A stretch of 33,930 bases of DNA, taken from assembly GCA_023140385.1 (NCBI GenBank), contig JAGLLT010000026.1:1-33930 (forward strand), read 5' to 3'. The stretch is from Candidatus Omnitrophota bacterium. GTDB lineage: Bacteria; Omnitrophota; Gorgyraeia; JAGLLT01. The notes beneath the pieces were generated by a model. That model saw only the letters and a list, made by a program, of their open reading frames with translations, searched no databases and was not told the DNA's origin. The translations under genes and the position numbers were made by a program. Shown here piece after piece: positions 241-19,420 of this stretch (its first letter is position 1; the number at the start of each line of letters is the position of its first letter).

Positions 241-1563
241 ATGAAAAAAGTTCTTTTTTTAGTTATAGGGGTGATTATTTTGTTTTTGTGTAGTTCTGTT
301 TCAGTAGAAGCGGGCGCTTATAAGGCCGCTGGTATTGGAGCCAAGTCTCTTTCAAGAGGAGGAGGCATTGGGGCGGTAGATGACTACACGGCAATCTTTT
401 GGAATCCCGCCGGCTTAACTCAAGTCGAAGAGAGCCACTTTACCATAGAGCCGCATTATCTTCACCTGAAGCAGGTTGACGGCAACTCGGTGAAGAACTA
501 CGATATTGCTAATTACAGCAATATGCAGGGGGACAGCTTTCTACGGATATACAATACACCGGGTACGGCTGTAGAGCCGGCTCAATTTGATAAAACAAGT
601 GCCATATATAGCAGTATAAGCCCCACTACGAGCTTCGGAGGGTCTTTTGAAATCAAGGGTTTTGATTTTGGCTTAGGCATATATACTCCCGCGGCGCTTA
701 GCACCGACTGGGAATGCTCGACGCGGGATTTAGTTAATAATGCCCTCATAGAAGCCGATTTCTTTTCCGGAATAAAAATGACCGCCTACAACATTTCTGT
801 AGCTAAGGAGATAAATTCTTATTTATCAATAGGAGCCGGCGTAAATTACCTGACAGGTGAAATGGAGGTAGAGGCTGAAAAGAGATATAGCTCTCAAGCG
901 GCGCCCGCGCTGGATTACCGGTTTGACTATAAGGAAGAAGCGGAAGGCGATGGAGTTGAGGGGGTGTTTGGGGTATTATTCAAGCCCCTTTCTAATTTAA
1001 AGATCGGCGGTGTATATCGAAGCGGCGCGGAGATGACCTTAAAAGGAGACTCATATTATAAGCACACCGCTTTAGGGATAGATGAAAGTAGTGATTATAC
1101 CCAGGATTATGATTTTCCTAATAGCTATGGAATAGGTTTGGCTTATGAGCCGGTTTCGGAACTGACCTTGCTGCTTGAGTGGGAGCGGACAGGCTGGGAT
1201 AGAGTAAAGAGAGATATAAATTACGACCTTGTTGGTGGAGCCGCGCTGATAGATGTAGACATAGATTGGGAGTGGAAGGATTCTAATCAGGTGCGTTTGG
1301 GGGCGGAGTACCGGGTTTCTCCTGAATTATCCGCGCGGGGCAGTATAGCCTGGGATGAGTCTCCTTTATCGGATGAAACGGTGAGTATAACCAATGTAGT
1401 TGATATAGATAAAATATACCTGTATTTAGGGTTAGGCTATCAGAGAAATAACTTTCAGTTTAACGCGGGGTATGCCTACGGCTTTGGCGACGATACTATT
1501 GACGGGGTTGATTATGAAATAATACTACATAACGTGATGTTGGGGGGCAGCTATTTCTTTTAA
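241..1563 (+). CDS. FadL/OmpP1-family outer membrane transport protein
   Basis: This 440-residue protein is predicted to be an outer-membrane beta-barrel that lets hydrophobic compounds cross the outer membrane, as FadL and TodX family members do. A signal peptide covers about residues 1-24 and ends near VEAGA. It is followed by the FadL-type N-terminal stretch with SRGG, DDYTAIFWNPAG and an early hatch region. The rest is rich in alternating aromatic and polar strands, and the chain ends in aromatic residues (SYFF), as is usual for barrels recognised by the BAM machinery. The ATG at 241 is preceded by AAAGGGG at 227-233. The length fits the family (about 400-460). The substrate cannot be read from the sequence. 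The next gene starts only 17 bp after the stop, so the porin may be cotranscribed with the signalling cluster. Confidence 0.85.
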   Translation: MKKVLFLVIGVIILFLCSSVSVEAGAYKAAGIGAKSLSRGGGIGAVDDYTAIFWNPAGLTQVEESHFTIEPHYLHLKQVDGNSVKNYDIANYSNMQGDSFLRIYNTPGTAVEPAQFDKTSAIYSSISPTTSFGGSFEIKGFDFGLGIYTPAALSTDWECSTRDLVNNALIEADFFSGIKMTAYNISVAKEINSYLSIGAGVNYLTGEMEVEAEKRYSSQAAPALDYRFDYKEEAEGDGVEGVFGVLFKPLSNLKIGGVYRSGAEMTLKGDSYYKHTALGIDESSDYTQDYDFPNSYGIGLAYEPVSELTLLLEWERTGWDRVKRDINYDLVGGAALIDVDIDWEWKDSNQVRLGAEYRVSPELSARGSIAWDESPLSDETVSITNVVDIDKIYLYLGLGYQRNNFQFNAGYAYGFGDDTIDGVDYEIILHNVMLGGSYFF

Positions 1564-1580
1564 AAGCGGAGGTGACAGCA

Positions 1581-3143
1581 ATGGATGACGAAAGGAAATA
1601 TGGAAGCGGCAGCTTGGAGAAAAGAAGGTTTACGCGCATAGTTAAGACTGTTCCGGTTGAGTTTAAATCCTGTCAGGCAGTGTCAGGGGGAGCGACTGCC
1701 AGAGATGTGAGTGAGGGTGGTTTGTGTATAGAGGCAGAACAGATAGAGCAGGAATCATTGCGGGAGTTACTATCTAAAAAGGCAGAAGTAAGCATAAAGA
1801 TAGATTTGCCGTCTGAATTTGGCGCGGTTGAGGTTGCGGCTCAAATTGCCTGGATAAAAGATAAAGAGGCTTCTGAGGGTAAGTTGTGTTTTGGGGTGAG
1901 ATTTACCGGGATACCCGAAGAATATCAGGGCAAAATTAAATTATATATTGAGCGTCAATCAAAGATAACGAAGTTGGATTTTGTTCCTAGAAAAAAGGAT
2001 AAAAATTTTGATCCTGAATTTGTTGCCCATAGGCGCCAGTGGCTAAGCGAAAAGACAAATACCAGATTTTTTCACACCGGTTATTTTTCTACTCCCAGTG
2101 AGGACATGAAAGGGAATATAGAGAACTTAATTGGTGTGACACAGATTCCTATTGGTGTTGCAGGACCGTTAAAAATAAACGGTCAATATGCCAAAGGAAC
2201 CTTTTATATTCCCCTTGCTACCACCGAAGGTACGCTAGTAGAAACATATCAACGGGGAATGCTTGTAATTACTAAAGCAGGTGGCGCAAATGTGATTGTT
2301 ACTAAGGATGTAATTAATGTTTCACCGGTCTTTATTTTGGAAGATATCTCTAAAATTAAGGGTTTCATTCTTTGGGTTGAAGAAAATTTTGAAAAGATCA
2401 AAGAAAAAGCAGAAAAAACGACAAGATATGGCAAGTTATTAAAAATTACACCTTTGTTCCTAGGAAAAAGAGTTATACTGAACTTTTGCTATACTACGGG
2501 GGACGCCATGGGGCTAAATATGATTAATATAGCCACGGATCGAGCCTGTGAATATATTAGGGAAAATGTAAAAACAGAAGGATTTTATCTGCGTTCTAAT
2601 TTTTCTTCTGATAAGAAAGCCTCGGTTTATAATTTAATTACAGGTTATGGAAAAGAAGTTTTAGTAGAGGTGACGCTTTCTAAAAAAATAGTTAATAGGT
2701 ATTTAAATTCTACACCAGAAGAAATTTACAATTTTTGGTATGTAGGTTTTCTTGGAAGTTATCAGGCAGGAATGATTGGTCTGAATGCTCATTTTGCTAA
2801 TGGTTTGGCTGCTATTTTTATTGCTTGTGGTCAAGATGTAGCTCAGATAATAAATGCTAATGTTGGAATTGTTATGTGTGAGATTACAAAAAATGGCGAT
2901 TTATGTATAAGTGCAAAGTTTCCAAATCTTGTGATTGGTACAGTAGGAGGGGGCACTTCTTTAAAAACTCAACGTGAATGTTTAGAGTCTATAGGATGCT
3001 ATGGTTCAGATAAAGCAAAAAAATTTGCTGAGATTGTAGCGGCTTCCATTTTAGCTGGAGAGATTTCAATTTGTGCAGCTTTAGCAAGCGGGGTATTTAT
3101 TAAGGCGCACGAAACCAAAAGAAATATTGCCCACACAGAGTAG
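1581..3143 (+). CDS. PilZ domain fused to class I HMG-CoA reductase
   Basis: This 520-residue protein joins two domains. Residues about 12-125 form a PilZ domain with both c-di-GMP-binding motifs: R15xxxR19 and D42xS44xxG47. Residues about 135-515 form a full HMG-CoA reductase, which reduces HMG-CoA to mevalonate with NAD(P)H. The four catalytic residues known from class I enzymes are all present: Glu216 in TTEG, Lys345 in SDKK, Asp419 in GQD and His510 near the C terminus. The cofactor motif GDAMGLNM and the GTVGGGTSLKTQREC motif are also intact. The ATG at 1581 is chosen over a GTG nine bases upstream because GGAGGTG at 1568-1574 is well placed for it. The reductase part is markedly more AT-rich than the PilZ part. 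A histidine kinase and an HD-GYP gene follow directly. c-di-GMP control of the reductase is inferred. Confidence 0.9.
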   Translation: MDDERKYGSGSLEKRRFTRIVKTVPVEFKSCQAVSGGATARDVSEGGLCIEAEQIEQESLRELLSKKAEVSIKIDLPSEFGAVEVAAQIAWIKDKEASEGKLCFGVRFTGIPEEYQGKIKLYIERQSKITKLDFVPRKKDKNFDPEFVAHRRQWLSEKTNTRFFHTGYFSTPSEDMKGNIENLIGVTQIPIGVAGPLKINGQYAKGTFYIPLATTEGTLVETYQRGMLVITKAGGANVIVTKDVINVSPVFILEDISKIKGFILWVEENFEKIKEKAEKTTRYGKLLKITPLFLGKRVILNFCYTTGDAMGLNMINIATDRACEYIRENVKTEGFYLRSNFSSDKKASVYNLITGYGKEVLVEVTLSKKIVNRYLNSTPEEIYNFWYVGFLGSYQAGMIGLNAHFANGLAAIFIACGQDVAQIINANVGIVMCEITKNGDLCISAKFPNLVIGTVGGGTSLKTQRECLESIGCYGSDKAKKFAEIVAASILAGEISICAALASGVFIKAHETKRNIAHTE

Positions 3144-3166
3144 CAAGAATTAAAAAAAGAGGATAA

Positions 3167-5281
3167 ATGCTTACCTATTTTGTAGCATTATGTTTTATAA
3201 CAGCCTTTTTTAGTTTATTTGCCGGTTCTTTTGTCTATTTAAAAAATAGAAAAGGAGCCCTCAATAGTGCTTTTGCTCTTTTGTGCCTAAGTGCATTTAT
3301 TTGGAGTGGAGGCTTAGGATTTGAGGTAATTTCTTCAAGTCAAAAGATAGGATTTTTCTGGTCAAGATTTCTCCATATGGGAGTAATTTTCATTACTCCT
3401 ACCTATTTACATGTTGTTGTTATTTTAGTGGGGCTTTATGAAAAAAAGAAGAGAATACTCAGCGGGGCATATGTCATTGCCTTTATTCTTTTTTTCTGCA
3501 ACTTTACCAACCTACTTGTTGAGGGCGTAAGTCCTAAATTATACTTTAATTATTATACCGATCCTGGTATGTTATACCCTTTACTGCTTTTGCTCTTTTT
3601 TTCATGTATGGGTTATGGTTTTTATCTGTTGGCCGCGGGATGCAGGAGGTTTTCTGGATTTAGACGCAATCAAATTAAATATTTTTTAATCGCAACACTT
3701 ATGGGGTATGTTGGTGGTACTCCTACCTATCTCCCCGTATCTAATATTTTTATTCACCCTTTTTATATGTGTTTGCTGCCAGTCTACTACTGCGTTCTTG
3801 CGTACTCTATTGTTAAATACCGCTTAATGGATATTAATATTATGTTTACCAAGGGGATTGTTTACATACTTTTGTTATTGTTGTCATCAGCAACATACCT
3901 TGGCCTTGCGTTTAGTGTTGATAAAATATTCTCACAGTATTCGGGGTACAATTCAAGCATGTCACACCTTCTCATTTTTTTGTTATTGATAGCCGGAATT
4001 ATACACGTGACTCCGCAGTTAAAAATTAAAACGGAAAAGGCGGTAGAAAAGGTATTGTTTAAGAATAAATATTTGTATCGTATTGCCTTGCAAAAATTTG
4101 GCAATAGGATTACTTATGACCTTTCTCAGGAAAAGCTTTTAAGTAACACGGTTAGTTTTATATCCAAGGTTATGCAGATACCCTATGTTTCAATTATGGT
4201 GAAAAATGAAATTTATGGCCATTATACTTACGGAGCTTCGGTTGGTTTTGACGATGATGAAATCAAAGGCTTAGAGTTTGCTGAAGACAGCGAATTAGTT
4301 AACTGGCTGTCTGACAATAAAGCGGTTCTGATTAAAGATGAGATGGAGAAAATACTTCCTTTAGAAAAAACACACCTTCTTGGTGAAGATATGGATAGGG
4401 TGAAGGCTTGTTTATGCATACCCTTATATGCCTCGGTTGACGTTATCGGTTTTCTGTGTCTATCTGAACGCGCGGCCAATGAAATATACTCACACATAGA
4501 TATAGGCTTGCTTCAGAGTATAGCCGGTCAAATTTCTCTGGTTATCGCCTATAAGCGCTTAGAGGATCACATGCTTCAGACGGAGAAGTTGGCTTCTTTA
4601 GGCACTTTGGCGGCCGGCCTTGCCCATGAGATAAAAAATCCTCTTTCAAGTATTCAAATTTTTGCTCAACTCTTTCCGCAGAAATACAACGATGAGGAAT
4701 TCAGAAATAAATTTAACAGGGTTGTAGTCCGAGATGTGCTCAGGATATCCAAGTTGATAGATAACGTATTGTCCCTTACTAAATCTAAGCCGGCTGAAGT
4801 TGTTCCTCATGACATCAATGATATAGTTGATGATACCTTGTCGCTGCTAAATAGCGAACTCTTAAAGAACAAAGTCAAGGTTATTAAGTCTTATGGTAAA
4901 CTGCCTCTTGTAAACTGTAACAATGAAGAGCTGAAGCAGGTCTTCCTGAATATTATTATAAACGCTATGCATGCTATGCCCGATGGAGGCACATTAAAAA
5001 TTACTTCTACTTTGGGCCCCCTTGCCACTTCGCGAAGTATAGAAAAAAGGCGTATTTTCGCGAGAATAAAAATTGAGGATAGCGGCTGTGGAATAGAAGA
5101 GAAGGTATTAAATAAACTATTTGACCCGTTTTTTACTACCAGGGCAGAGGGGACCGGTTTGGGCCTGGCGCTGGCTCATCGTATTATCAAGCAGCATCGT
5201 GGTTTTATTGGAGTAGAGTCTAAATTGGGGGAGGGCACGGTATTTTGGATAGACCTTCCGGTTGTCCGAGGTGAAACTTAA
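3167..5281 (+). CDS. Membrane-bound 7TM-GAF sensor histidine kinase
   Basis: This 704-residue sensor kinase begins with about 225 residues of closely spaced hydrophobic helices, resembling the N-terminal 7TM histidine kinase module, with one further helix near residues 235-265. A GAF-like sensor region spans about 300-460. The dimerisation domain has the phospho-accepting His487 in LAHEIKNPLSS. The ATPase domain has an N box (FLNIIINAMHAM), a G1 box (EDSGCGIEE), FDPFFTT and a G2 box (GTGLGLALAHRI), so it should be active. Between the N box and G1 there is an extended loop containing a perfect 12-bp palindrome at 5027-5038. The gene starts 23 bp after the PilZ-reductase stop and 16 bp before the response regulator, which is its obvious phosphotransfer partner. 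The signal sensed is unknown. Confidence 0.93.
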   Translation: MLTYFVALCFITAFFSLFAGSFVYLKNRKGALNSAFALLCLSAFIWSGGLGFEVISSSQKIGFFWSRFLHMGVIFITPTYLHVVVILVGLYEKKKRILSGAYVIAFILFFCNFTNLLVEGVSPKLYFNYYTDPGMLYPLLLLLFFSCMGYGFYLLAAGCRRFSGFRRNQIKYFLIATLMGYVGGTPTYLPVSNIFIHPFYMCLLPVYYCVLAYSIVKYRLMDINIMFTKGIVYILLLLLSSATYLGLAFSVDKIFSQYSGYNSSMSHLLIFLLLIAGIIHVTPQLKIKTEKAVEKVLFKNKYLYRIALQKFGNRITYDLSQEKLLSNTVSFISKVMQIPYVSIMVKNEIYGHYTYGASVGFDDDEIKGLEFAEDSELVNWLSDNKAVLIKDEMEKILPLEKTHLLGEDMDRVKACLCIPLYASVDVIGFLCLSERAANEIYSHIDIGLLQSIAGQISLVIAYKRLEDHMLQTEKLASLGTLAAGLAHEIKNPLSSIQIFAQLFPQKYNDEEFRNKFNRVVVRDVLRISKLIDNVLSLTKSKPAEVVPHDINDIVDDTLSLLNSELLKNKVKVIKSYGKLPLVNCNNEELKQVFLNIIINAMHAMPDGGTLKITSTLGPLATSRSIEKRRIFARIKIEDSGCGIEEKVLNKLFDPFFTTRAEGTGLGLALAHRIIKQHRGFIGVESKLGEGTVFWIDLPVVRGET

Positions 5282-5297
5282 GGCGAGAGGGAATATT

Positions 5298-6275
5298 ATG
5301 AACGAACGCATATTGGTAGTTGATGATGAACTTGGAATCAGAGAGTCATTGCAAATGATGTTGAGTGATGAGTATGAAGTCTCTATGGCTGACAGCGGCG
5401 ATGAGTGTCTTAAGGTACTTAAAAAAGACCGCGCGTTTTCTCTATTAATACTGGATGTAAGAATGCCGGGCTTAAGCGGGATAGAGGTTTTAAAGAGGGT
5501 AAAAAAGATGAGCCCTTCTTTGTCGGTGATTATTTTGACGGCAGTAGATACGCATGAGGCGGTGGTTGAGGCTTTAAAGTTTGGGGCAGAGGACTTTATT
5601 GCCAAACCGGTTGATATATATCATATGCGGGAAGTCATAAAAAAAGCTTTATCCAAGCCCAAAGAGGATAAAGCGCGAGTAAAAAAAAAGCCGATTTCAG
5701 TAGATGAGGTTTTGAATGAAAACTTCATGGAAGCCATTCAGGTTTTAACTGAGATAATTGAGGCTAAAGACCCCTACCTTAAAAGACATTCTAAGTGGAC
5801 TACCGAGTATGCTATAGCCATTGCCAGCAAGTTAGGGCTTTCTGAGGAACAAATGGATGTAATAAGGCAAACCTGTTTGCTTCACGATATCGGCAAGGTA
5901 GGGATTAGTGATGTTATTCTGCAGAAAAAAACAAAGCTTGCCCCTGAGCAGTGGGAGGCGCTGAAGAAGCATCCTGTAATTGGCGAAAAAATACTCAAAA
6001 ATTTTAGGCTTTTGCGCATTGAACAAAAAATGGTTCGCCATCATCATGAGCGGTATGATGGAAGTGGCTATCCGGATGGTTTAAGGGCAGAAGAAATTCC
6101 TCTCTACGCCCGTATCTTATCAGTCGCGGATGCTTTTGAATCTATGACCGCCGGCCGTGTATACAAAAAACCCCTTTCCAGCAAAGATGCCATAGAAGAG
6201 ATTAAAGCGGGAAGCGGTACGCAATTTGACCCCAAAATAGTGAATGTTTTTGTTGCCTTAGTTACAAAGAAGTAG
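5298..6275 (+). CDS. Response regulator with HD-GYP c-di-GMP phosphodiesterase domain
   Basis: This 325-residue two-domain regulator has a receiver domain at about 1-120, with acidic pocket residues D9 and D10, phospho-acceptor Asp53 in ILDVRMPG, a conserved Thr in LTAVD and Lys in AKPVD. An HD-GYP domain at about 145-320 has the metal-binding pair His196-Asp197 and the diagnostic HHExxDGxGYP signature at 249-259. Active HD-GYP proteins hydrolyse c-di-GMP to GMP. The ATG at 5298 is preferred over a TTG at 5262 that lies inside the kinase gene, because a GAGAGGG ribosome site sits just upstream. The neighbouring kinase probably phosphorylates it, and the PilZ-reductase two genes upstream is a candidate target of the c-di-GMP it controls. 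Confidence 0.93.
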   Translation: MNERILVVDDELGIRESLQMMLSDEYEVSMADSGDECLKVLKKDRAFSLLILDVRMPGLSGIEVLKRVKKMSPSLSVIILTAVDTHEAVVEALKFGAEDFIAKPVDIYHMREVIKKALSKPKEDKARVKKKPISVDEVLNENFMEAIQVLTEIIEAKDPYLKRHSKWTTEYAIAIASKLGLSEEQMDVIRQTCLLHDIGKVGISDVILQKKTKLAPEQWEALKKHPVIGEKILKNFRLLRIEQKMVRHHHERYDGSGYPDGLRAEEIPLYARILSVADAFESMTAGRVYKKPLSSKDAIEEIKAGSGTQFDPKIVNVFVALVTKK

Positions 6276-6334: not shown

Positions 6335-7060
6335 ATGATTATTGCTAAAAACATAACCAAATATTTCGGAGAGCTTCAGGCCTTAAAGAATGTCTCATTT
6401 GAAATTAATAAAGGGGAAATTATTGGTTTTTTGGGGCAGAATGGCGCCGGCAAGACTACGCTTATGCGCATTTTGACTTCCTATCTTCCCGCCGCGTCCG
6501 GCCAGGTTTTCATTGACGGGCAGGAGGTGTCTAAGAACTCTTTGACTGTTCGCAAAAAAATAGGATATTTACCTGAAACGCCGCCGCTTTATTCTGATAT
6601 GACGGTAAGAGATTACCTTAAATTTGCCGCGCGGCTAAAAGACGTCCCGGCTAAACGGCAGTGTATTCAGATAGATAAAGCTTTAGGGGAGTGTAACCTC
6701 AAAGATGTCCGGCATAAAATCATCGGCACTCTTTCTAAAGGATATAAGCAAAGGGTGGGCATTGCTCAGGCTATAATTAATAATCCCGAAATTTTAATAT
6801 TGGATGAACCGACAATAGGCCTGGATCCGACCCAAATTATACAAGTGCGCGCTCTTATCAAAAATTTGGAGTATGAAAGAACCGTTATATTAAGCACGCA
6901 TATCCTCTCAGAGATTCAACAGATTGCTCATAGAGTTTTAATTATTAAGGCCGGCGAAGTTATTGTCGATAAAACCTTAAAAGATCTCCTAAAGGAATTC
7001 AATGCGGACCTTGAGGGTATATTTTTAAAACTGCATTTGGCTAAGGAGAACCAGGGGTAA
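6335..7060 (+). CDS. ABC transporter ATP-binding protein (ABC-2/GldA type)
   Basis: This 241-residue ATPase powers an ABC-2-type export system. It has a Walker A motif GQNGAGKTT at 34-42, an ABC signature in LSKGYKQRVG around residue 135, a Walker B ILILDEP followed by the D-loop region, and the switch histidine in LSTHIL. It resembles the ATP-binding subunits of the GldA and NatA groups. Its stop overlaps the start of the permease gene by one base (TAATG), so translation is probably coupled. The third gene encodes a GldG-like accessory protein. The set resembles the GldA-GldF-GldG complex, which occurs widely in non-gliding bacteria too, so gliding motility should not be assumed. The substrate is unknown. 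No clear promoter was found in the 59-bp gap upstream. Confidence 0.92.
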   Translation: MIIAKNITKYFGELQALKNVSFEINKGEIIGFLGQNGAGKTTLMRILTSYLPAASGQVFIDGQEVSKNSLTVRKKIGYLPETPPLYSDMTVRDYLKFAARLKDVPAKRQCIQIDKALGECNLKDVRHKIIGTLSKGYKQRVGIAQAIINNPEILILDEPTIGLDPTQIIQVRALIKNLEYERTVILSTHILSEIQQIAHRVLIIKAGEVIVDKTLKDLLKEFNADLEGIFLKLHLAKENQG

Positions 7061-7770
7061 TGAAGAAGATTTTTGCTATTGCCAAAAAAGAACTAAAAGC
7101 CTATTTCAAATCTCCTATCGCCTATATTGTTTTAATCGTTACTATTTGCGTTTTTAATATATTTTTTTTCCTGATTATTGACGGGGACAGGGAAGCTGAT
7201 TTACGCGATGTATTTAAAGTTATGGAATTTTTGTTTATCTTCATTGTGCCGCTTCTGACTATGAAAATATTCGCGGAAGAAAAACTTTCCGGGACTATGG
7301 AATTCCTTATGACCACTCCTACGACAAATACAGCAATCGTTGTTGGTAAATATTTAGGCAGTTTAATGTTTTTCACTATAATTATCTGGATAACATCAAG
7401 TTATTATTTTATTATCGAATTTTTCGGCCAGCCCGACCGCCTGACTATATTAGCCGGATATTTGGGTATTTGGCTGGAGGGCGCCTTATTTATTGCTATC
7501 GGCATATTAATCTCTTCCTGGACAAAGAATCAGATTGTTGCCGCCATTACTTCTTACGCGGTCTTGTTTTTATTGTATTTTTCGATAAGTTTCATTAAAT
7601 ATTTCAACAGCTGGGCGGAAGCCGTGGTCCGATATATTGCTGTCTGGAGTCACACCGGGAATCTTGCCGCGGGCATTATTACTACGGCGGATTTGGTGTA
7701 TTATATAAGCGGCATTTTTGTTTGTATTGTATTCACAAGACTTAGTATTGAGAATCGATTATGGCGTTAA
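7060..7770 (+). CDS. ABC-2 type permease (GldF-like)
   Basis: This 236-residue integral membrane protein has about six hydrophobic helices, near residues 18-42, 58-75, 95-120, 135-155, 165-185 and 210-230. A positively charged start (MKKIFAIAKKELKAYFKSP) is typical of ABC-2 permeases, and the EKLSGTMEFLMTTP segment matches the conserved cytoplasmic motif after the second helix of that family. It forms the transmembrane channel for the upstream ATPase. The start codon overlaps the ATPase stop and the 3' end overlaps the next gene by 10 bp, so all three form a translationally coupled operon. The length is normal for a single-domain GldF-type subunit. Confidence 0.9.
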   Translation: MKKIFAIAKKELKAYFKSPIAYIVLIVTICVFNIFFFLIIDGDREADLRDVFKVMEFLFIFIVPLLTMKIFAEEKLSGTMEFLMTTPTTNTAIVVGKYLGSLMFFTIIIWITSSYYFIIEFFGQPDRLTILAGYLGIWLEGALFIAIGILISSWTKNQIVAAITSYAVLFLLYFSISFIKYFNSWAEAVVRYIAVWSHTGNLAAGIITTADLVYYISGIFVCIVFTRLSIENRLWR

Positions 7771-9386
7771 ATAGAAAACTCATAAATCCATCCTGGTTAT
7801 TCGGAATAGGAGCTGTTTGTCTTTTGTGCGGACTGGGGGCCGCGTATATAGAAAATCATTTCAGCAAATTGACTATTTTTATTTCTTTAGCCGGGTTGGT
7901 TAGTATTTTGATTTGTTTTTTTGAGTTAAAAAAGTTTACTCGTGGATCAAAGAGGGCCTTTCAATGGCAAAGATACGGCTTTATCGTGCTTGCGGCCGCG
8001 TCTCTTCTGACCTTTTTGGCGGGAGTTAATTATTTGGCCTATCACTATAATACGCGCTGGGATATAACAAAAGCCAAGCAGCACACCTTGACTCGAAGCA
8101 CTACATCAATTATAAAAGATATCAAACAGGAAGTTAAGGTAATAGCCTTTCATGTAGGGATACCGCCAAAGTACCTGGATGATTTATTTAAAGAGTATGA
8201 GAGACAGTCTAAAGGAAAAATCAAAACCGAAATCATTGATCCTATCGTGCGGATTGGCTATGCCGCCCAATTCGGCAGTGTGATAAGCGGAGAAGAAAGA
8301 AAAGTTATAATTATATCGGGGAGTGAGCGCAGGGACATTGATTTTACAGAGCAGCTGTTATCTGAGGAGCAATTAACTAATGCCATTATGCGGGTGGCGA
8401 GGGATAAGCGCGTTGTTTACTTTTTAACCGGCCATGGTGAATACGACGTTTTTAGCGAGGACGATAATGGTTTAAGCCTTTTAAGGGAAATACTAAGCGC
8501 TAATAATATAGAAACAAAAACAGTAATGTTGGGCATTAAAAATGAAATTCCGGATGACTGTAATATCCTTATCGTTGCCGGCCCTCGAAATCCTCTGACA
8601 GAAGAAGAGGATGAGATTATCAAAGGTTATTTAAAGAAAGGCGGAGATGCCCTTTTTTTAATAGAAAATACTCCTCTTACCTCACCTGATAAACCGCTTA
8701 CAGATGAGGAAAAACGCAAAAATCCTTCCTTGAATAACATTCTGGAATATTGGGGAGTAAGGATAGCTGATGATATTGTTGTAGACTTGTCCAATCATAT
8801 AGGTAAGGATGTAGGATGTCCGGCTACCCGTAATTATCCGCCGCACAAGACTATTGTCAAAAATTTGGACTATACCTTTTATATCCGTCCCCGCTCAATT
8901 TCGGTTTTAGATGATCGGCGTGAATCAGTTAGAGTGGCCCCTTTAGTTTTAACCGCTTCAAAAGAAAGCAGTTGGGGTGAGACCAATAGGACTCTGCATG
9001 TCCAATTTGATGAGGGGGTGGACAGGCCGGGCCCTGTTCCCATTGCGGTTGTTATCTGGGAACCAAGAGGGGAGGGTAAAGTTTCTGATGTCCCTGTGCC
9101 CTTGGAGGCACAGGCGGATACGGATACACGCATCATTGTTTTTACTGACGCGGACTTTTTATCCAACGCTTTTCTAGATAAATACAGTAATGCCGAGATG
9201 GGGCTAAATGCTATCAGTTGGCTTTCGGATTTGGATTACAGGATTTCTATCGACCGTAAGACAATTAAAATCGGTCAGCTTGATTTGACAAGCAAGCAAA
9301 AACGCATAGTAGCTGTTACCCTTTTTGCCATGCCCCTCCTTATCGCCGCCAGCGGCATAATAACCTGGCTCAAGCGGAAGAGTTGA
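7761..9386 (+). CDS. GldG-like ABC transporter auxiliary protein
   Basis: This 541-residue protein has three N-terminal hydrophobic segments (about 12-30, 36-54, 72-92), a large extracytoplasmic domain and one C-terminal helix (about 514-534) followed by LKRKS. The segment after the third helix, with RWDITKAKQHTLTRST, and the following region with YFLTGHGEYD are hallmarks of the Gldg_ABC family (Pfam PF09822). The family's exact role is unknown; members accompany an ABC-2 ATPase and permease as here. A perfect 8-bp inverted repeat at 9093-9114 lies in a loop-like part around residues 445-452. The gene overlaps the permease by 10 bp. It is the last gene of the operon, since a promoter-like site appears downstream. 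Confidence 0.88.
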   Translation: MALNRKLINPSWLFGIGAVCLLCGLGAAYIENHFSKLTIFISLAGLVSILICFFELKKFTRGSKRAFQWQRYGFIVLAAASLLTFLAGVNYLAYHYNTRWDITKAKQHTLTRSTTSIIKDIKQEVKVIAFHVGIPPKYLDDLFKEYERQSKGKIKTEIIDPIVRIGYAAQFGSVISGEERKVIIISGSERRDIDFTEQLLSEEQLTNAIMRVARDKRVVYFLTGHGEYDVFSEDDNGLSLLREILSANNIETKTVMLGIKNEIPDDCNILIVAGPRNPLTEEEDEIIKGYLKKGGDALFLIENTPLTSPDKPLTDEEKRKNPSLNNILEYWGVRIADDIVVDLSNHIGKDVGCPATRNYPPHKTIVKNLDYTFYIRPRSISVLDDRRESVRVAPLVLTASKESSWGETNRTLHVQFDEGVDRPGPVPIAVVIWEPRGEGKVSDVPVPLEAQADTDTRIIVFTDADFLSNAFLDKYSNAEMGLNAISWLSDLDYRISIDRKTIKIGQLDLTSKQKRIVAVTLFAMPLLIAASGIITWLKRKS

Positions 9387-9417
9387 AGCATCAACATTTC
9401 AAATTTGCTATAACCTC

Positions 9418-9446
9418 TTGACGTGAAGTTGTTTTTATAGTAATCT
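9418..9446 (+). promoter_or_regulatory. Sigma70-type promoter for the TauE/PA2779 unit
   Basis: TTGACG at 9418-9423 and TAATCT at 9441-9446 are spaced by 17 bp. The start codon of the next gene is 31 bp downstream. The same TTGACG -35 hexamer with 17-bp spacing recurs at 11414 and 19913, which supports it as a genuine local promoter form. Confidence 0.65.
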
Positions 9447-9476
9447 AATGTTTGATAAGAGTGGGGGGAGGTTGTT

Positions 9477-9836
9477 TTGGGTAGTTATCTTTTTGTTGTG
9501 GTGGGGTTGGTAGCTGGGATATTGAGCGGGCTTTTGGGTATTGGGGGCGGGATTGTTATGGTGCCCGCGTTGATTTACTTTTTTGGGTTTAGCCAGCATG
9601 GAGCCCAGGGGACTACTCTTGCCGCGATGATACTTCCTATAGGATTGCTCGCCGCTTTAAAGTATTATTCTCACGGACACGTTAGTATAGCTGTGGCTAT
9701 GTTTATTGCTATGGGGTTTTTTGTGGGCGGTTTTATAGGCGCTAGTTTTGTGGAGCGCGTTCCCGATGTTATGCTGAAAAGAATATTCGGGTTGTTTATG
9801 TTGGCTGTTTCTGTAAAGATGATTTTTGGGAAATGA
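9477..9836 (+). CDS. Half-size TauE/SafE-family membrane protein
   Basis: This 119-residue, very hydrophobic protein has about four transmembrane helices. It carries the TauE/SafE family signature GLLGIGGG near residue 20 and GGFIGA near 85. Family members are usually about 250 residues with two such repeats and export sulfite, sulfoacetate or related anions. This one has a single repeat and would need to dimerise. Translation probably starts at TTG 9477, because GGGGAGG at 9463-9470 is ideally spaced and no closer ATG exists in frame. The ORF ends naturally, followed by two hairpins, so I see no sign that a second half has been broken off. The substrate cannot be predicted. Confidence 0.8.
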   Translation: MGSYLFVVVGLVAGILSGLLGIGGGIVMVPALIYFFGFSQHGAQGTTLAAMILPIGLLAALKYYSHGHVSIAVAMFIAMGFFVGGFIGASFVERVPDVMLKRIFGLFMLAVSVKMIFGK

Positions 9837-9839
9837 GAT

Positions 9840-9877
9840 ATCCCCCCTTGTTTTCTTGGAAAACACGCAGGGGGGAT
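9840..9877 (+). terminator. Strong hairpin after the TauE-like gene
   Basis: ATCCCCCC at 9840-9847 pairs with GGGGGGAT at 9870-9877, and TTTTC at 9851-9855 pairs with GAAAA at 9859-9863 in the apex. There is no T tract. It starts just after the stop codon, so it is either an attenuating or RNA-stabilising structure or a non-canonical terminator. Confidence 0.5.
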
Positions 9878-9883
9878 CAATTC

Positions 9884-9901
9884 GTCCCGCCGCTGCGGGA
9901 C
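9884..9901. repeat. Small perfect hairpin before the PA2779-like gene
   Basis: GTCCCGC at 9884-9890 pairs perfectly with GCGGGAC at 9895-9901 around a CGCT loop. Its right edge continues into CTCATT and then the ribosome site GAGGAGA. The sequence CGGGACTCATT also occurs directly before the ribosome site of the porin gene (216-226). Confidence 0.55.
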
Positions 9902-9918
9902 TCATTGAGGAGAAAAGA

Positions 9919-10332
9919 ATGATTTTTAAGGGGATGCTTAGGAAGAAGGGGGTTTATTTTTTTATGTTTGGGGCGGCTTTGGTTTTGGGGTGTTTGCCGG
10001 TGAATGCTTTTGCTATGCCGGTTGATTCTGTATCCGGCGGGGCGGGTTTGTCCGCGGCTCACCGGAGCGATTTGGAGACGATTACTAAATTTCTTGAGGA
10101 AGAGGCGGTGGTTGAGAAGCTGGCGAAGTTGGGATTGTCGGCGAATGAGATTGAAAGTAGGCTTGATACTATGGATGAGTATCAGGTTCACAAACTGGCG
10201 GGGAAGATTGATTCTGTCCAGAAGGCGGGTAGTGGGACGGGGCTGGTTATTGGGCTTTTAATATGTCTTCTTATTTTTATTGGATTTTTATATGTTACAG
10301 ACCGCAGTGTTAAGATAGAAAAAAACAGTTAA
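9919..10332 (+). CDS. PA2779-family small membrane protein
   Basis: This is a 137-residue protein with an N-terminal signal or anchor segment (about 10-32), a short helical extracytoplasmic region, and a C-terminal transmembrane helix (about 108-127) preceded by a glycine-rich turn. The middle has the features of the PA2779 family: a helix that includes HRSDLETITKFLE, then LSANEIESRLDTM, then DEYQVHKLAGKID. Function is unknown. The family is named for its Pseudomonas aeruginosa member and is normally encoded directly before a PA2778-family peptidase, as it is here, 7 bp away. The ATG at 9919 has GAGGAGA at 9907-9913 and gives a sensible signal sequence. An upstream in-frame start at 9826 would run through the hairpins and is rejected. 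Confidence 0.85.
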   Translation: MIFKGMLRKKGVYFFMFGAALVLGCLPVNAFAMPVDSVSGGAGLSAAHRSDLETITKFLEEEAVVEKLAKLGLSANEIESRLDTMDEYQVHKLAGKIDSVQKAGSGTGLVIGLLICLLIFIGFLYVTDRSVKIEKNS

Positions 10333-10339
10333 GAAAATT

Positions 10340-11407
10340 GTGAAGCCTGCTTTTCGAGTTTATTTCAGCGCGCTGTTATGTATGATTGTTTTGTGCGGCT
10401 GTACCGCTTATAATTTCGCGATTATTAAAGGTGATTTAGATAGCGATAAAGATGAAGGCCATTATATTGATGGCCTTCTTTTTTTTGAGCAGAAGAAGAA
10501 TTGGTGCGGCCCGGCGGCGCTGGCCGGCGTCCTGCGTTTTTGGAAAAATGAAGTATCGCAGGATGAAGTAGCCCATTCGATATATCTTAGCGGCATAAAA
10601 GGAACCCTTACCTTTGATTTGGAGAATTTTGCTTTTGAAAGAGGATACTTTGCCCAAAGCCGCGAAGCTGACCTGTATGAATTGGGCGATAGAATCAGAG
10701 AGGGCATTCCGGTTATCGTAATGCAGCGGATCCTGCCTTTGATTAAGAAGTATCATTATCTGGTTGTTTTTGGTTATGATGACAGCAAGGAAGTTGTCCT
10801 TGTTTATTCGGGAAAGGAAGAGCCGGAGCTTATATCTTATTCCGCCTTTAGCAGAAAGTGGCGGGGCGCCGGTAACTGGATGCTGGTAGTCTGCCCGCCG
10901 GAAAAGGTTGGCTGGGAGGTTGACGCCTATCACTTGAACAGGTTAGGCCTTTTGTATGAGAAAAGCGGGGAGCCGGATAAGGCCAGGGCTTATTATCAAA
11001 AGGCGGGCGATGAAGAAAAGGACAACCCCGCTTATCCCTTTAATCTGGCTAACACCTACCTTCTTGAGAATAATTATCAAAGGGCTATATCTTTTTATGA
11101 GGCGGCGCTCGTCAGGGATGATAAATATGCCGACGCTTATAATAACCTGGCTTACTGTTTGTCTGAAAGCGGAGGCGATTTGGATAAGGCCGAAGAGTAT
11201 GCTCTTCGCGCTTTAGAGCTTAATCCGAAAAACAGGCCGTATTATCTGGATACGCTGGGAAGTGTTTATCTGAAAAAAGGGAAGGCTGAAGAAGCGGTAT
11301 CCTGCTTTAAGGAAGCCCTGTCCTTTAAAGAAACACTTAGCAAAAAGGCCCTCAGGCAAATAGAGGAACGCTTGGACGCGGGAGAGAGTCTAATAAAGGG
11401 CCACTGA
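10340..11407 (+). CDS. PA2778-family C39 cysteine peptidase lipoprotein with TPR repeats
   Basis: This 355-residue protein has a lipoprotein signal with lipidated Cys21 in VLCGC. A C39-like papain-fold domain follows at about 45-185, with nucleophile Cys56 in NWCGPAAL and catalytic His139 in KYHYLVVFGYD. Tetratricopeptide repeats fill about 195-350; one unit reads as AYPFNLANTYLLENNYQRA and another begins ADAYNNLAYCL. The architecture matches the PA2778 family, usually paired with PA2779 as seen here. Its substrate is unknown. C39 domains often cut at double-glycine sites, and the partner has a GG at the start of its exposed region, but a substrate relation is speculation. Translation starts at GTG 10340, 7 bp after the upstream stop, with only a weak ribosome site, suggesting translational coupling. 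Confidence 0.87.
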   Translation: MKPAFRVYFSALLCMIVLCGCTAYNFAIIKGDLDSDKDEGHYIDGLLFFEQKKNWCGPAALAGVLRFWKNEVSQDEVAHSIYLSGIKGTLTFDLENFAFERGYFAQSREADLYELGDRIREGIPVIVMQRILPLIKKYHYLVVFGYDDSKEVVLVYSGKEEPELISYSAFSRKWRGAGNWMLVVCPPEKVGWEVDAYHLNRLGLLYEKSGEPDKARAYYQKAGDEEKDNPAYPFNLANTYLLENNYQRAISFYEAALVRDDKYADAYNNLAYCLSESGGDLDKAEEYALRALELNPKNRPYYLDTLGSVYLKKGKAEEAVSCFKEALSFKETLSKKALRQIEERLDAGESLIKGH

Positions 11408-11413
11408 ATATGA

Positions 11414-11442
11414 TTGACGCGTTTATTTTTATTTGTTAAGAT
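11414..11442 (+). promoter_or_regulatory. Promoter of the purine operon
   Basis: TTGACG at 11414-11419 and TAAGAT at 11437-11442 are separated by 17 bp, 42 bp before the purB start. I saw no purine riboswitch-like aptamer or PurR-like palindrome in the short leader. Confidence 0.6.
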
Positions 11443-11484
11443 GTAGTTGTTTTTAAATGAAGTCCAAGTATACGAGGTAAGCCA

Positions 11485-12780
11485 ATGATAAAAAGATATT
11501 CGCGAAAGATAATGCGGGATGTTTGGAGCGAGGATAACAAGCTTCAGAAGATGCTCGAGGTGGAACTGGCGGTCTGCGAGGTTCTGTCAGAAAAGAAGAT
11601 CATACCTAAAAAAGATTTCCTTACCATAAAGAAAAAAGCTAAATTTAACGCTGTAAAGATTAAAGAACTGGAGAAGATTACCAGGCATGATGTGGCGGCC
11701 TTTGTGAATAATGTCTCGTCTTATGTGGGCGCGGCGGGTAAGTATATCCACTGGGGGCTTACTTCTACCGATGTAGTTGATTCGGGACAGGCCGTACAGC
11801 TTAGAGAAACTGTAGATATACTGATAAATGATTTAAAAGGCCTTATGAGGGTTTTGAAGAAAAAGGCCGTAAAGTATAAAAATACGATTTGTGTCGGAAG
11901 AACGCACGGCATACATGCCGAACCGACAACCTTTGGCCTTAAGATGGCTCTTTATTATGAGGAGGCTAAGCGTAACCTTAAACGCCTCAACGACGCCAGA
12001 GATATTATTAATGTGGGCAAGATATCCGGCTCTGTTGGAACCTTTTCACACTTAGGCCCCGAGGTGCAGGATAAGGCCTTGAAAAAGCTGGGTTTGAAGG
12101 CCGCGGCTATTTCGACCCAGGTTTTACAAAGAGACAGGCACGCTCAATACATTTCAACACTGGCCATAGTTGGCGCTTCATTAGAGAAGATAGCCCTTGA
12201 GGTACGTAATCTGCAGAGGACTGATGTTTTGGAGGCGGAGGAGTATTTTTCAAAAGGCCAGAAGGGTTCTTCTTCTATGCCGCATAAAAGAAATCCTGTG
12301 CGAAGTGAAAGGGTCTGCGGGTTGGCCAGGGTATTGAGAGGTTATGTGGGTGTAGCACTTGATAATGTTGCCCTATGGCACGAAAGAGATATAAGCCACT
12401 CATCGGCTGAAAGGATTATTCTACCTGATGCCGCTATGCTGCTTGACTATTTACTCTCTGAGATGACTTATATCGTGGACAACTTAATTGTTTATCCCGA
12501 TAAGATGATATTCAACCTTGAGAAAGTACAGGGGCTGATATTTTCTCAAAGGCTGATGCTCTATCTTATCCAGGAAAAAGGCCTTACCAGAAAGACAGCT
12601 TACGACCTGATACAAAAATCAGCTCTATACGCCTGGGAAAAGAAGGTACCCTTTAAGGATGTCCTATTGAAAGATAAAAAGTTTTTATCCTACGTCGGAC
12701 CTAAGGAGATAGATAAGTTTTTTGATTATAAGTACTACTTAAGGTATGTTGATAAGATATATAAAAGAGTGGGAATTTAA
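11485..12780 (+). CDS. purB: Adenylosuccinate lyase
   Basis: This 431-residue enzyme cleaves fumarate from SAICAR in IMP synthesis and from adenylosuccinate in AMP synthesis. The superfamily signature SSSMPHKRNP is at 262-271, with the flexible-loop catalytic serine in the SSS stretch. Other conserved elements are TRHDVAAFV, HWGLTSTDVVDS and GRTHGIHAEPTTFG. The length matches the short bacterial form (about 430), as in Bacillus and Thermotoga. It is first in a compact purine operon (purB, purL, purQ, purM, purD) behind its own promoter, with purL starting 18 bp downstream. The ATG at 11485 is preceded by ACGAGGTAAGCC, a reasonable ribosome site. All core motifs are intact. Confidence 0.96.
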   Translation: MIKRYSRKIMRDVWSEDNKLQKMLEVELAVCEVLSEKKIIPKKDFLTIKKKAKFNAVKIKELEKITRHDVAAFVNNVSSYVGAAGKYIHWGLTSTDVVDSGQAVQLRETVDILINDLKGLMRVLKKKAVKYKNTICVGRTHGIHAEPTTFGLKMALYYEEAKRNLKRLNDARDIINVGKISGSVGTFSHLGPEVQDKALKKLGLKAAAISTQVLQRDRHAQYISTLAIVGASLEKIALEVRNLQRTDVLEAEEYFSKGQKGSSSMPHKRNPVRSERVCGLARVLRGYVGVALDNVALWHERDISHSSAERIILPDAAMLLDYLLSEMTYIVDNLIVYPDKMIFNLEKVQGLIFSQRLMLYLIQEKGLTRKTAYDLIQKSALYAWEKKVPFKDVLLKDKKFLSYVGPKEIDKFFDYKYYLRYVDKIYKRVGI

Positions 12781-12798
12781 AGGATAGAAGGTACATAT

Positions 12799-15687
12799 AT
12801 GTTTTGGAGAGTTGAGGTAGAGAATAAATTGGGTGTTTTTGACGCGGCGGGTGACGCGGCTAAAAAGGATATTAAAGACCTGAGGATTGAGGGGGTAAAA
12901 GAGGTCAGGGTAAAGCAGGTCTATGTCCTTTACGGAGATCTAAAAGAAAGCGATGTAAAGAGCATCGTGGATAATATCCTGGTTGACAAGATTATTCAGG
13001 AGTATAAGTATTATAATCAATCGGATATCGAAAAAGGTGTTATTGAAGGCGGAGTAAAGGTGGTTGAGGTTGCCCAAAATGCGGGGGTTATGGATCCCTG
13101 GGAGGCCAGTATAAAAAAGGCTGTAGCTGATTTGGGCATTGAGCGGCTTGAAGATGTAAAGACCGCCAAGCAGTATCTTATTAAAGGCGACATAGACACA
13201 AAGCAGGCCAGGCATATTGCCGAGAAGGCCTTTTTTAACAAGCTTATTCAGCATATCCGCGTAAATAAAGAAATCTACTCAAAAGAACCCTATCTTAAAA
13301 AAGAGTTGCCCAAATATAAGTTCAGCCTTATCGAAATCAATCTCCTTGATGCTGATAATGAGAAGCTAATGGAGATTTCTAAAAGCGGCCAGTTATTTTT
13401 GAATCTGGTTGAGATGCGGGAAATCCAGAAATATTTCAGAAACTTAGGCAGAAAACCCACTGACTGTGAGCTTGAGACTATAGCCCAAACCTGGTCTGAG
13501 CACTGCTCTCATAAGACGTTTAAAGGGTTAATTGAATATGAGGGTAAGGTTATTGACGACCTGCTTAAGTCCACCGTTATGCGGGCGACTGCTGTTTTGA
13601 ATAAGGATTGGTGCGTTTCTGTTTTTAAGGACAATTCGGGGATAATTGAATTTGATGATGAGTGCAATGTCTGTTTTAAGGTTGAGACGCATAATCATCC
13701 GTCCGCTTTAGAGCCCTATGGAGGCGCTTCAACCGGTATTGGAGGGGTGATAAGAGACCCCCTAGGTACCGGCCTGGGAGCCAGGCCCATAGCTAATACG
13801 GATGTTTTTTGTTTTGGCCCGCCGGATTATCCTTTTGAAAAGCTTCCCAAGGGTACGCTTCATCCAAAAAGAGTTATGAAAAGAGTTGTTTCCGGTGTTA
13901 GAGACTACGGTAATAGAATGGGCATACCCACGGTAAACGGGGCCGTCTATTTTAATGAGGGTTATGTCGGAAATCCGCTTGTCTATTGCGGCAACATCGG
14001 TATTATGCCCAGGGATAAATGTTTTGATAAAGTAGATACCGGAGACCTTGTGGTTGTTGTGGGCGGTAAGACGGGAAGAGACGGCATTCATGGCGCCACC
14101 TTCTCGTCCGGCGAGCTGACTCATGAGTCGGAGGAGGTTTCAAGCTCCGCTGTTCAAATCGGAAATGCCATAACCGAAAAGAAGATGGCCGATGTTATTA
14201 TAAAGGCCCGCGATAAAAATTTATATAAAGCTATCACAGACTGCGGCGCCGGAGGGTTATCGTCAGCTATAGGGGAGACAGGTGAGGAAACAGGCGCCAG
14301 AATTGACCTCGAAAAGGTTCCCCTGAAGTATCATGGGCTTAATTATTCGGAGATATGGATATCCGAGTCTCAGGAAAGGATGGTGCTGGCGGTTGACAGG
14401 AGTAAGGCGGACGCGCTCTTAAACCTTTTTGCTTCAGAGGACGTTGAAGCCGTTGTTATCGGAGAATATACCGATACTAAGAAGTTAGAGCTTTTCTACG
14501 ACGGTAATAAGGTCTGCGAGCTGGATATGCAGTTTTTGCACAAAGGGCTTCCGAGAGTTAAAAATAAGGCTGTCTGGAGAAGGCCTGACGCGAAAGAGCC
14601 TTCATTAAAAGAAAAAGATGATTATACGGATACTCTGCGAAAGATATTGTCGACCTATGATGTATGCAGTAAAGAGTGGATTATCAGGCAGTATGACCAT
14701 GAAGTTCAGGGGCAGACTGTCTTGAAGCCTTTAGGCGGGAAGGATAACGACTCGCCCAATGACGCCGCCTGCATAAAACCGCGCTATGATTCTAAAAGAG
14801 GACTGCTTATTTCCTGCGGGATAAACCCCTACTTCGGTATGATTGACCCCTACTGGATGGCGGTTAATGTTATTGATGAGGCCTTGAGGCAGATAGTTGC
14901 CTCCGGTGGTAATTTGGAGAGGGTTGCTATACTGGATAATTTCTGCTGGGGTTCTCCCGAAAAGGAGGAGCAGATGGGTTCGTTGGTCAGAGCGTCAATT
15001 GGTTGTTATGACGCGGCCGTGGGCTATGGGACTCCTTTTATCTCGGGGAAGGATAGTTTAAATAATGAGTACAATGAACATGGTAAAACAGTATCTATCC
15101 CGGGGACACTTCTGATATCGGCTATGGGTGTAATGGAGGATAGTACTAAAACTATATCGGCTGACTTTAAAGAAGCGGGCAGTCTTATTTATGTGGTTGG
15201 ATTGACTAAGGATGAACTTGGAGCTTCCGCGCTCTACAGGTTAAAAGGCCAAATGGGGGCCAATGTCCCTACGGGCAGTATAAAAGATAATAAAAAACTG
15301 ATGGACGCTCTTTCCGGGGCCGCGGCAAAAGGCCTTGTTAGAAGCTGTCATGACTGTTCCGAGGGCGGCCTGGCAGTTTGCCTGGCTGAGATGGCCTTCG
15401 CGGGAGGTTTGGGAGCGGACGTTAACCTGAAAGATGTAGTAATTAATATGGAAAAGCCGCTTGACTATAAAATACTCTTTTCAGAGTCAATGTCTCGATT
15501 TATAGTAGAAGTTTTACCGGATAAAAAAGATGATTTTGAGAAGGTTTTAAAAGATATGCCGTTTAACCGAATAGGTGAGGTTAAGGATGATAAGCAAGTG
15601 AAGGTTAAAGGTTTAAGCGGTAAAACGATTATTAAAGCTGATATAAATGAGCTCAAAGAAAGTTGGCAGAAACCTTTAAGGTGGTAA
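12799..15687 (+). CDS. purL: FGAM synthase with two fused PurS-like repeats (PurS-PurS-PurL)
   Basis: This 962-residue enzyme makes formylglycinamidine ribonucleotide from FGAR, ATP and glutamine-derived ammonia. Residues about 1-73 and 87-155 are two PurS-like repeats. Each follows the same pattern (V-x-GV-D, KK-DL-IE, V-K-Y-GD, then K-IQ), for example YVLYGDLKES in the first and YLIKGDIDTK in the second. The rest, from about 165, is a small-type PurL with the substrate motif THNHPSALEPYGGAS, QTWSEHCSHKTF, and a second half with SCHDCSEGGLAV. No glutamine amidotransferase domain is attached; PurQ is encoded 3 bp downstream and supplies it. Stand-alone PurS is about 80 residues and acts as a dimer bridging PurL and PurQ. 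This architecture places both copies in one chain, as the N-terminal domain of the large E. coli enzyme does. Confidence 0.94.
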   Translation: MFWRVEVENKLGVFDAAGDAAKKDIKDLRIEGVKEVRVKQVYVLYGDLKESDVKSIVDNILVDKIIQEYKYYNQSDIEKGVIEGGVKVVEVAQNAGVMDPWEASIKKAVADLGIERLEDVKTAKQYLIKGDIDTKQARHIAEKAFFNKLIQHIRVNKEIYSKEPYLKKELPKYKFSLIEINLLDADNEKLMEISKSGQLFLNLVEMREIQKYFRNLGRKPTDCELETIAQTWSEHCSHKTFKGLIEYEGKVIDDLLKSTVMRATAVLNKDWCVSVFKDNSGIIEFDDECNVCFKVETHNHPSALEPYGGASTGIGGVIRDPLGTGLGARPIANTDVFCFGPPDYPFEKLPKGTLHPKRVMKRVVSGVRDYGNRMGIPTVNGAVYFNEGYVGNPLVYCGNIGIMPRDKCFDKVDTGDLVVVVGGKTGRDGIHGATFSSGELTHESEEVSSSAVQIGNAITEKKMADVIIKARDKNLYKAITDCGAGGLSSAIGETGEETGARIDLEKVPLKYHGLNYSEIWISESQERMVLAVDRSKADALLNLFASEDVEAVVIGEYTDTKKLELFYDGNKVCELDMQFLHKGLPRVKNKAVWRRPDAKEPSLKEKDDYTDTLRKILSTYDVCSKEWIIRQYDHEVQGQTVLKPLGGKDNDSPNDAACIKPRYDSKRGLLISCGINPYFGMIDPYWMAVNVIDEALRQIVASGGNLERVAILDNFCWGSPEKEEQMGSLVRASIGCYDAAVGYGTPFISGKDSLNNEYNEHGKTVSIPGTLLISAMGVMEDSTKTISADFKEAGSLIYVVGLTKDELGASALYRLKGQMGANVPTGSIKDNKKLMDALSGAAAKGLVRSCHDCSEGGLAVCLAEMAFAGGLGADVNLKDVVINMEKPLDYKILFSESMSRFIVEVLPDKKDDFEKVLKDMPFNRIGEVKDDKQVKVKGLSGKTIIKADINELKESWQKPLRW

Positions 15688-15690
15688 ATA

Positions 15691-17540: not shown

Positions 17541-17560
17541 TATTTATTGGAAAGGTTGGA

Positions 17561-18841: not shown

Positions 18842-18848
18842 TAAATTG

Positions 18849-18979
18849 CAGGGAAAAACAACATTTTTCCACTAAGACACGATTTTCCCCTGCGGGTCGC
18901 AAAAAGTTACCTAAAAATTGCCTCCCGGCCTTAACGGGCTCGCCGATTTTTTAAACGGTACCTTTTTGCTAAAATCGTG
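18849..18979. repeat. Long imperfect palindromic intergenic element
   Basis: Several inverted pairs nest around a CCCG...CGGG apex. CACGATTTT (18878-18886) pairs with AAAATCGTG (18971-18979). GCAAAAAGTTACC (18899-18911) pairs with GGTACCTTTTTGC (18957-18969) with one mismatch. CAGGGAAAA (18849-18857) can alternatively pair with TTTTCCCCTG (18883-18892). It fills most of the 211-bp gap after purD. It may be a MITE-like repeat, and the TTTTTT at 18947-18952 could add terminator activity. Confidence 0.65.
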
Positions 18980-19052
18980 AGGCGTTGCAAAATATTATTT
19001 TACCCTGATGTGGGCGGTAAGGGGGGTAAAGGAATAAAAAGAGGTCAGGAAA

Positions 19053-19391: not shown

Positions 19392-19420
19392 AGGACTAAT
19401 TTCAAATTTTGGAGAGGTTT

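Follow-up and report, generated by a model that had tools for sequence, protein, structure and literature searches.

A PilZ-fused HMG-CoA reductase homologue from Omnitrophota, its 7TM sensor kinase partner and a possible role in signalling

The locus and the fusion gene

The window, i.e. the whole stretch of DNA analysed here, is one entire contig of 33,930 bp and belongs to a MAG of 1.5 Mb that is 93% complete. The features relevant to this work are as follows.

241-1563, plus strand: FadL/TodX/OMPP1-family outer-membrane protein, a hydrophobic-compound channel (Pfam Toluene_X PF03349, 4e-25)
1568-1575, plus strand: Shine-Dalgarno sequence GGAGGTGA, read from the sequence, 5 nt ahead of ATG 1581
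1581-3143, plus strand: PilZ-HMGR-like fusion protein, 520 aa, single uninterrupted ORF starting with ATG
1617-1952, plus strand: PilZ domain with RxxxR and DxSxxG motifs (Pfam PF07238, 7e-13, 49 bits)
2022-3116, plus strand: HMGR-like catalytic domain (Pfam PF00368, HMG-CoA_red, 8e-114)
3167-5281, plus strand: sensor histidine kinase HisKA_7TM-GAF-HisKA-HATPase (Pfam; H-box GLAHEIKNPL)
3191-3835, plus strand: 7TM receptor region of the kinase (PF16927, 1e-17)
5298-6275, plus strand: REC-HD-GYP response regulator, c-di-GMP phosphodiesterase type (Response_reg 3e-27, HD_5 3e-35)
6335-9386, plus strand: ABC ATPase, ABC-2 permease and ABC_transp_aux protein (Pfam), 59 bp downstream and co-oriented

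The fusion protein is encoded in one open frame in which Pfam identifies PilZ followed by HMG-CoA_red, demonstrating that the in-frame fusion described in the initial annotation is real; a GTG at 1572 lies within the Shine-Dalgarno sequence GGAGGTGA. The motif positions given there are all right, too: the PilZ domain carries RRFTR from R15 (R15/R19) and DVSEGG from D42 (D42/S44/G47), matching the c-di-GMP receptor motifs RxxxR and (D/N)xSxxG, and the HMGR-like domain carries ATTEG (Glu216), SSDKK (Lys345), GQDVA (Asp419) and FIKAH (His510), so that fold and catalytic Glu/Lys/Asp/His of HMG-CoA reductase are both present. A Foldseek search with the HMGR-like domain gave 6hr7 as top match with a TM-score of 0.90 to the target. 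The PilZ domain is the top-scoring Pfam PilZ match of the whole genome, and its comparison with PDB sequences gave no match. In the AlphaFold models the PilZ part was of low confidence, the alignment being devoid of PilZ homologues, and the 7TM region had a mean pLDDT of 66; both were kept out of claims about pockets or interfaces.

The kinase gene follows the fusion gene after 23 bp and is itself followed by the receiver-HD-GYP gene, an order for which Pfam and motif reading bear out the initial annotation. The regulator more likely starts at ATG 5298 than at TTG 5262, and its motifs LLHDIGKVG and HHERYDGSGYP are intact, corresponding to the HD and HHExxDGxGYP motifs of HD-GYP phosphodiesterases. 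In the host genome six GGDEF, six HD_5 and seven PilZ matches were detected, together with a single HMGR and a single HisKA_7TM match, which are adjacent to each other. The FadL-family gene, not mentioned in the initial annotation, is co-oriented with the fusion gene and ends 17 bp upstream of it. It is a possible part of the operon, but as phmmer searches of other clade loci (see below) detected no homologue, it was rejected as a conserved partner, and its membership in the module is uncertain. Further downstream in the window, a TauE/SafE homologue (9477-9836) matches only the C-terminal half of the profile and is possibly truncated, and positions 11485-19903 hold ordinary purine biosynthesis genes (adenylosuccinate lyase, PurS/L/Q/M, PurD and PurE).

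Relation to the mevalonate pathway

According to the initial annotation c-di-GMP gates an HMG-CoA reductase and thereby sets isoprenoid flux, a reading in agreement with the class I HMGR fold and the retained catalytic residues. HMG-CoA synthase (PF08540), however, had no match in the window's genome (93% complete) or in 58 relatives, whereas IspH, an enzyme of the MEP pathway, is present in the window's genome and was found in 55 of the 58 relatives. The module M00096 is the non-mevalonate one. This C5-isoprenoid biosynthesis module has been reported as complete or near-complete in Omnitrophota (PMC10066038). Of 26 genomes whose HMGR homologues are mostly non-canonical, 25 likewise lacked HMG-CoA synthase, and the match in the remaining genome was weak and split.

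The fusion protein scores 378 bits against TIGR00533, the NCBIfam model for HMG-CoA reductase (NADPH), and thus stays below the cut-off of 442. Arg590, Ser684 and Asn755 (human numbering) touch HMG in class I HMGR, Asn755 also being part of the catalytic hydrogen-bond network (PMC9500038). In the window protein these HMG-contacting residues, which the initial annotation did not cover, are replaced by Ile, Arg and Gly, respectively. Moreover, the HMGR tree unites the HMGRs of archaea and eukaryotes in one clade (100/100), and the window enzyme is placed by its sequence in a bacterial HMGR-like clade apart from these canonical HMGRs. As IspH is present, HMG-CoA synthase has no match and the HMG-contacting residues are altered, the isoprenoid reading fails and was rejected. 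We strongly disfavour gating of isoprenoid flux by c-di-GMP and give it a very small chance; it is very unlikely that the window enzyme supplies isoprenoid synthesis. The window protein is an HMGR homologue and not the HMG-CoA reductase of a mevalonate pathway.

A bacterial HMGR-like clade with 7TM kinases

About 100 HMGR loci were gathered from a scan of a genome collection and from genome searches. The HMGR tree places the 15 loci that have a 7TM receptor gene together on the same side of a branch whose support values, 91/91, are below the tree's starred support level. Using a 7TM search model derived from the clade's own sequences, with Pfam independently backing HisKA_7TM in most cases, we found a 7TM gene near the HMGR gene in 15/15 clade loci vs 1/86 other HMGR loci, and that single match was weak and 1.9 kb distant. 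In 13 of these 15 loci the HMGR and 7TM genes are separated by no more than about 0.2 kb; in the other two, one gene lies between them (L154) or the distance is 7.2 kb (L161). Two more clade loci (L209 and L210) also contain a 7TM gene, giving 17/17 clade loci examined, which come from Omnitrophota, Nitrospirota and one genome labelled Parcubacteria. The link of the fusion enzyme to the 7TM kinase is therefore strong, supporting the sensor kinase connection made initially. Co-occurrence with HD-GYP genes, the check suggested in the initial annotation, recurs in four loci (the window, L153, L154 and L207), where an HD-GYP is close to the HMGR-7TM pair. In another genome, lacking an HMGR match, five HisKA_7TM genes are found within about 9 kb (G019 contig C34, 20615-29899).

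HMGR and 7TM distances are correlated (Mantel test, r 0.43, p 1.5e-4 by permutation). By either protein, the window groups with the same Nitrospirota pair and not with Omnitrophota loci; the 7TM tree contains long branches from minus-strand matches, probably wrong-strand translations, and was used only for the grouping of paired kinases. Since the distances correlate and both proteins place the window nearest two Nitrospirota pairs, the HMGR-7TM pair seems to move as a unit.

The N-terminus of the clade enzymes is exchangeable, being a PilZ domain, a receiver domain or neither. Searching for the PilZ-HMGR architecture elsewhere, as had been recommended, revealed it in two Nitrospirota genomes (L203 and L204), so that it occurs in three loci, each time beside a 7TM-type kinase. 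Most clade members lack PilZ, and in L203 the PilZ serine is replaced by Gly. As the window groups with the PilZ-less L045 and L202 (98/93) and L203 groups with L204 elsewhere (100/99), PilZ was gained at least twice or repeatedly lost. A receiver is fused to the HMGR-like enzyme in L160, L161, L162 and probably L210, and in L161 receivers are also found on a ketosynthase (KS) and a thioesterase. Control of the fusion enzyme by c-di-GMP is plausible, because PilZ-HMGR recurs in another phylum, the host encodes GGDEF and HD-GYP proteins, and receivers take the place of PilZ. The HMGR-like protein of L206 (1361-4063) ends in an EcKL/APH kinase-like domain; its N-terminal region looks PilZ-like by eye, but gave no Pfam PilZ match and was left out of the PilZ-HMGR count.

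That the window shows chance neighbours or an assembly join could be argued from its origin in one MAG and from the same-genus and same-family genomes searched, in which no HMGR was found. However, PilZ-HMGR is present in two further genomes, a 7TM neighbour in 17/17 clade loci, and the genome's single HMGR adjoins its single HisKA_7TM match. This recurrence of fusion and pairing refutes chance and an assembly artefact, to which we assign next to no probability.

Most clade members have Arg in place of Ser684. Of the members shown, none retains Asn755 and several have lost Asp690, and Glu559 is replaced by Gln in L154. Given the loss of Asn755, and of Asp690 in some members, weak activity or a non-catalytic role of the clade enzymes is possible. 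These losses and the constant kinase pairing would fit a non-catalytic sensor, i.e. an HMGR-like domain that binds acyl-CoA or NAD(P)H and relays their state to the kinase. However, all members shown retain the catalytic Lys, Asp and His, Glu is replaced in just one of them, and KS and ACP genes co-occur at some loci, making a pure sensor improbable in our view.

Acyl chemistry and the proposed circuit

Some non-canonical HMGR homologues are accompanied by acyl-chemistry genes. In the 7TM clade, the gene order is KS-ACP-HMGR-GMC oxidoreductase-7TM/GAF/HD-GYP (the latter twice) in L154 and KS(end)-ACP-HMGR-7TM kinase in L047, L048 has a weak upstream match to a FeeM-like N-acyl synthase that is below the cut-off, and L161 encodes REC-KS, REC-HMGR, REC-thioesterase and an ACP. 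KS and ACP are absent from the window and many clade loci. Outside the clade, paired ketosynthases and an ACP lie beside HMGR homologues in L046 and L049-L051, and AMP-binding/PP-binding/HMGR fusions occur in L102 (1952-5086; assigned by Pfam) and L094 (5913-9140; assigned by length and tree position). The KS/ACP neighbours and the AMP-ligase/PP-binding/HMGR fusion suggest that HMGR-like enzymes may perform acyl-thioester reduction.

Further HMGR-like groups were noticed. In a Gammaproteobacterial clade (L057, L062, L075 and relatives; Alteromonas, Paraglaciecola, Alcanivorax) the HMG-contacting residues are altered, and HMG-CoA synthase was absent from the 3/3 genomes tested. A second HMGR-like clade (L055, L083, L061, L157, L159, L205 and L085) is accompanied by AMP-ligase, DUF3419 (BtaA-like), BadF/DUF2229 and MFS-acyltransferase genes; these loci probably represent an operon for fatty alcohols or ether lipids that carries an HMGR annotation. 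In L161 the receiver-fused ketosynthase, the receiver-fused HMGR-like enzyme, the receiver-fused 4HBT thioesterase and the ACP belong to one cluster (6478-18001).

Given the constant proximity of the clade to a single type of membrane receptor, we think it probable that the window enzyme synthesises or regulates a signal or lipid derived from fatty acids. Our preferred reading, to which we lean tentatively and at a little under even chances, sees the protein as an acyl-thioester reductase of HMGR fold whose acyl-derived signal is read by the 7TM kinase, with c-di-GMP feedback via HD-GYP and PilZ. The fusion enzyme would convert acyl-ACP or acyl-CoA by reduction into an alcohol or aldehyde, and the kinase would detect this product, or a derivative of it, through its 7TM region. 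As is usual in these families, the kinase is expected to phosphorylate the REC-HD-GYP protein, which would hydrolyse c-di-GMP and so lower its level. The PilZ domain would let c-di-GMP tune the activity of the enzyme, closing a feedback loop. As a receiver takes the place of PilZ in sister loci, the kinase might there control the enzyme directly. A hydrophobic signal would go well with the FadL-family gene upstream, as long-chain AHLs are imported by FadL in Sinorhizobium (PMC9938287), but this gene lacks counterparts in the other loci searched.

In a serious rival reading, the product of the HMGR-like reductase is not a signal but a fatty alcohol or aldehyde destined for a lipid of the membrane or envelope, the 7TM kinase sensing the membrane and the PilZ or receiver domains switching the enzyme. 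The second HMGR-like clade resides in apparent lipid operons. In L161, KS, HMGR and thioesterase all bear receivers, as would be expected if output enzymes were controlled directly; these enzymes may be what the kinase acts on, in keeping also with regulated lipid synthesis. However, none of the lipid genes of the second clade is present in the 7TM-clade loci examined, and the HMGR-kinase pair often stands without other genes (L003, L045, L202 and L004), which fits a synthase-receptor pair better than a lipid enzyme. We regard a regulated lipid enzyme as somewhat less likely than signal synthesis.

More broadly, and with somewhat more reserve than for the circuit in the window, we propose a phylum-spanning, previously undescribed system in which an HMGR-family reductase produces an autoinducer for HisKA_7TM, with PilZ or receiver feedback on the synthase. 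Literature searches, with subscription papers mostly outside their coverage, found no paper joining HMG-CoA reductase, PilZ and c-di-GMP, and nothing relevant on HMGR with quorum-sensing synthases or with two-component systems or ketosynthases. HMGR is best known as the statin target. If our proposal holds, a branch of bacterial HMGRs left the mevalonate pathway and joined signalling circuits, providing signal synthases of a new class, each paired with a receptor, and a candidate ligand class for HisKA_7TM receptors, and second-messenger and receiver domains sit directly on biosynthetic enzymes. An HMGR match alone is an unsafe basis for annotating a mevalonate pathway in uncultured bacteria.

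Comparison with known systems

The window protein shares fold and catalytic Glu/Lys/Asp/His with class I HMGRs (human 1dq8, Methanothermococcus 6hr7), but differs from them by its altered HMG-contacting residues, the lack of a detectable mevalonate pathway, its separate clade, and the N-terminal PilZ domain that replaces the first part of the N-domain. BcsA cellulose synthase is a PilZ-regulated enzyme with PilZ and catalytic domain on one chain; the window protein resembles it in this respect, whereas enzyme, domain order and pathway are different. Carboxylic acid reductase-type A-PCP-R enzymes use an SDR-type reductase domain. The HMGR-like domain of L102 follows AMP-ligase and PP-binding domains and thus occupies the same position of a terminal thioester reductase, but is not SDR-type, and the window protein has neither a ligase nor a carrier domain.

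CqsA-CqsS of Vibrio (CAI-1) combines the synthase of a lipid-like signal, the aminotransferase-type CqsA, with a membrane receptor kinase (PMC13220807). The window likewise pairs a proposed signal synthase with a membrane receptor kinase, although its enzyme is HMGR-like and not aminotransferase-type. To our knowledge, the CqsA-CqsS gene pair lacks HD-GYP and PilZ.

In the Rpf/DSF system of Xanthomonas, the synthase RpfF acts on intermediates of fatty acid synthesis and is accompanied by the sensor RpfC and the REC-HD-GYP regulator RpfG, and inactive RpfC holds and inhibits RpfF via its REC domain (PMC3749722, PMC13220807). The synthases are different, RpfF having a crotonase fold without fused PilZ or REC and the window enzyme an HMGR fold with PilZ; Pfam identified no crotonase gene, and hence no RpfF-type synthase, among the module genes of the window. 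Unlike RpfC, a hybrid kinase that contains REC and Hpt domains, the window kinase is non-hybrid. The multi-TM sensor kinase and the REC-HD-GYP regulator are both found in the window, and as in Rpf/DSF they are encoded together with the (here putative) synthase. The circuit logic that we propose would thus match that of RpfF-RpfC-RpfG signalling, with an unrelated synthase.
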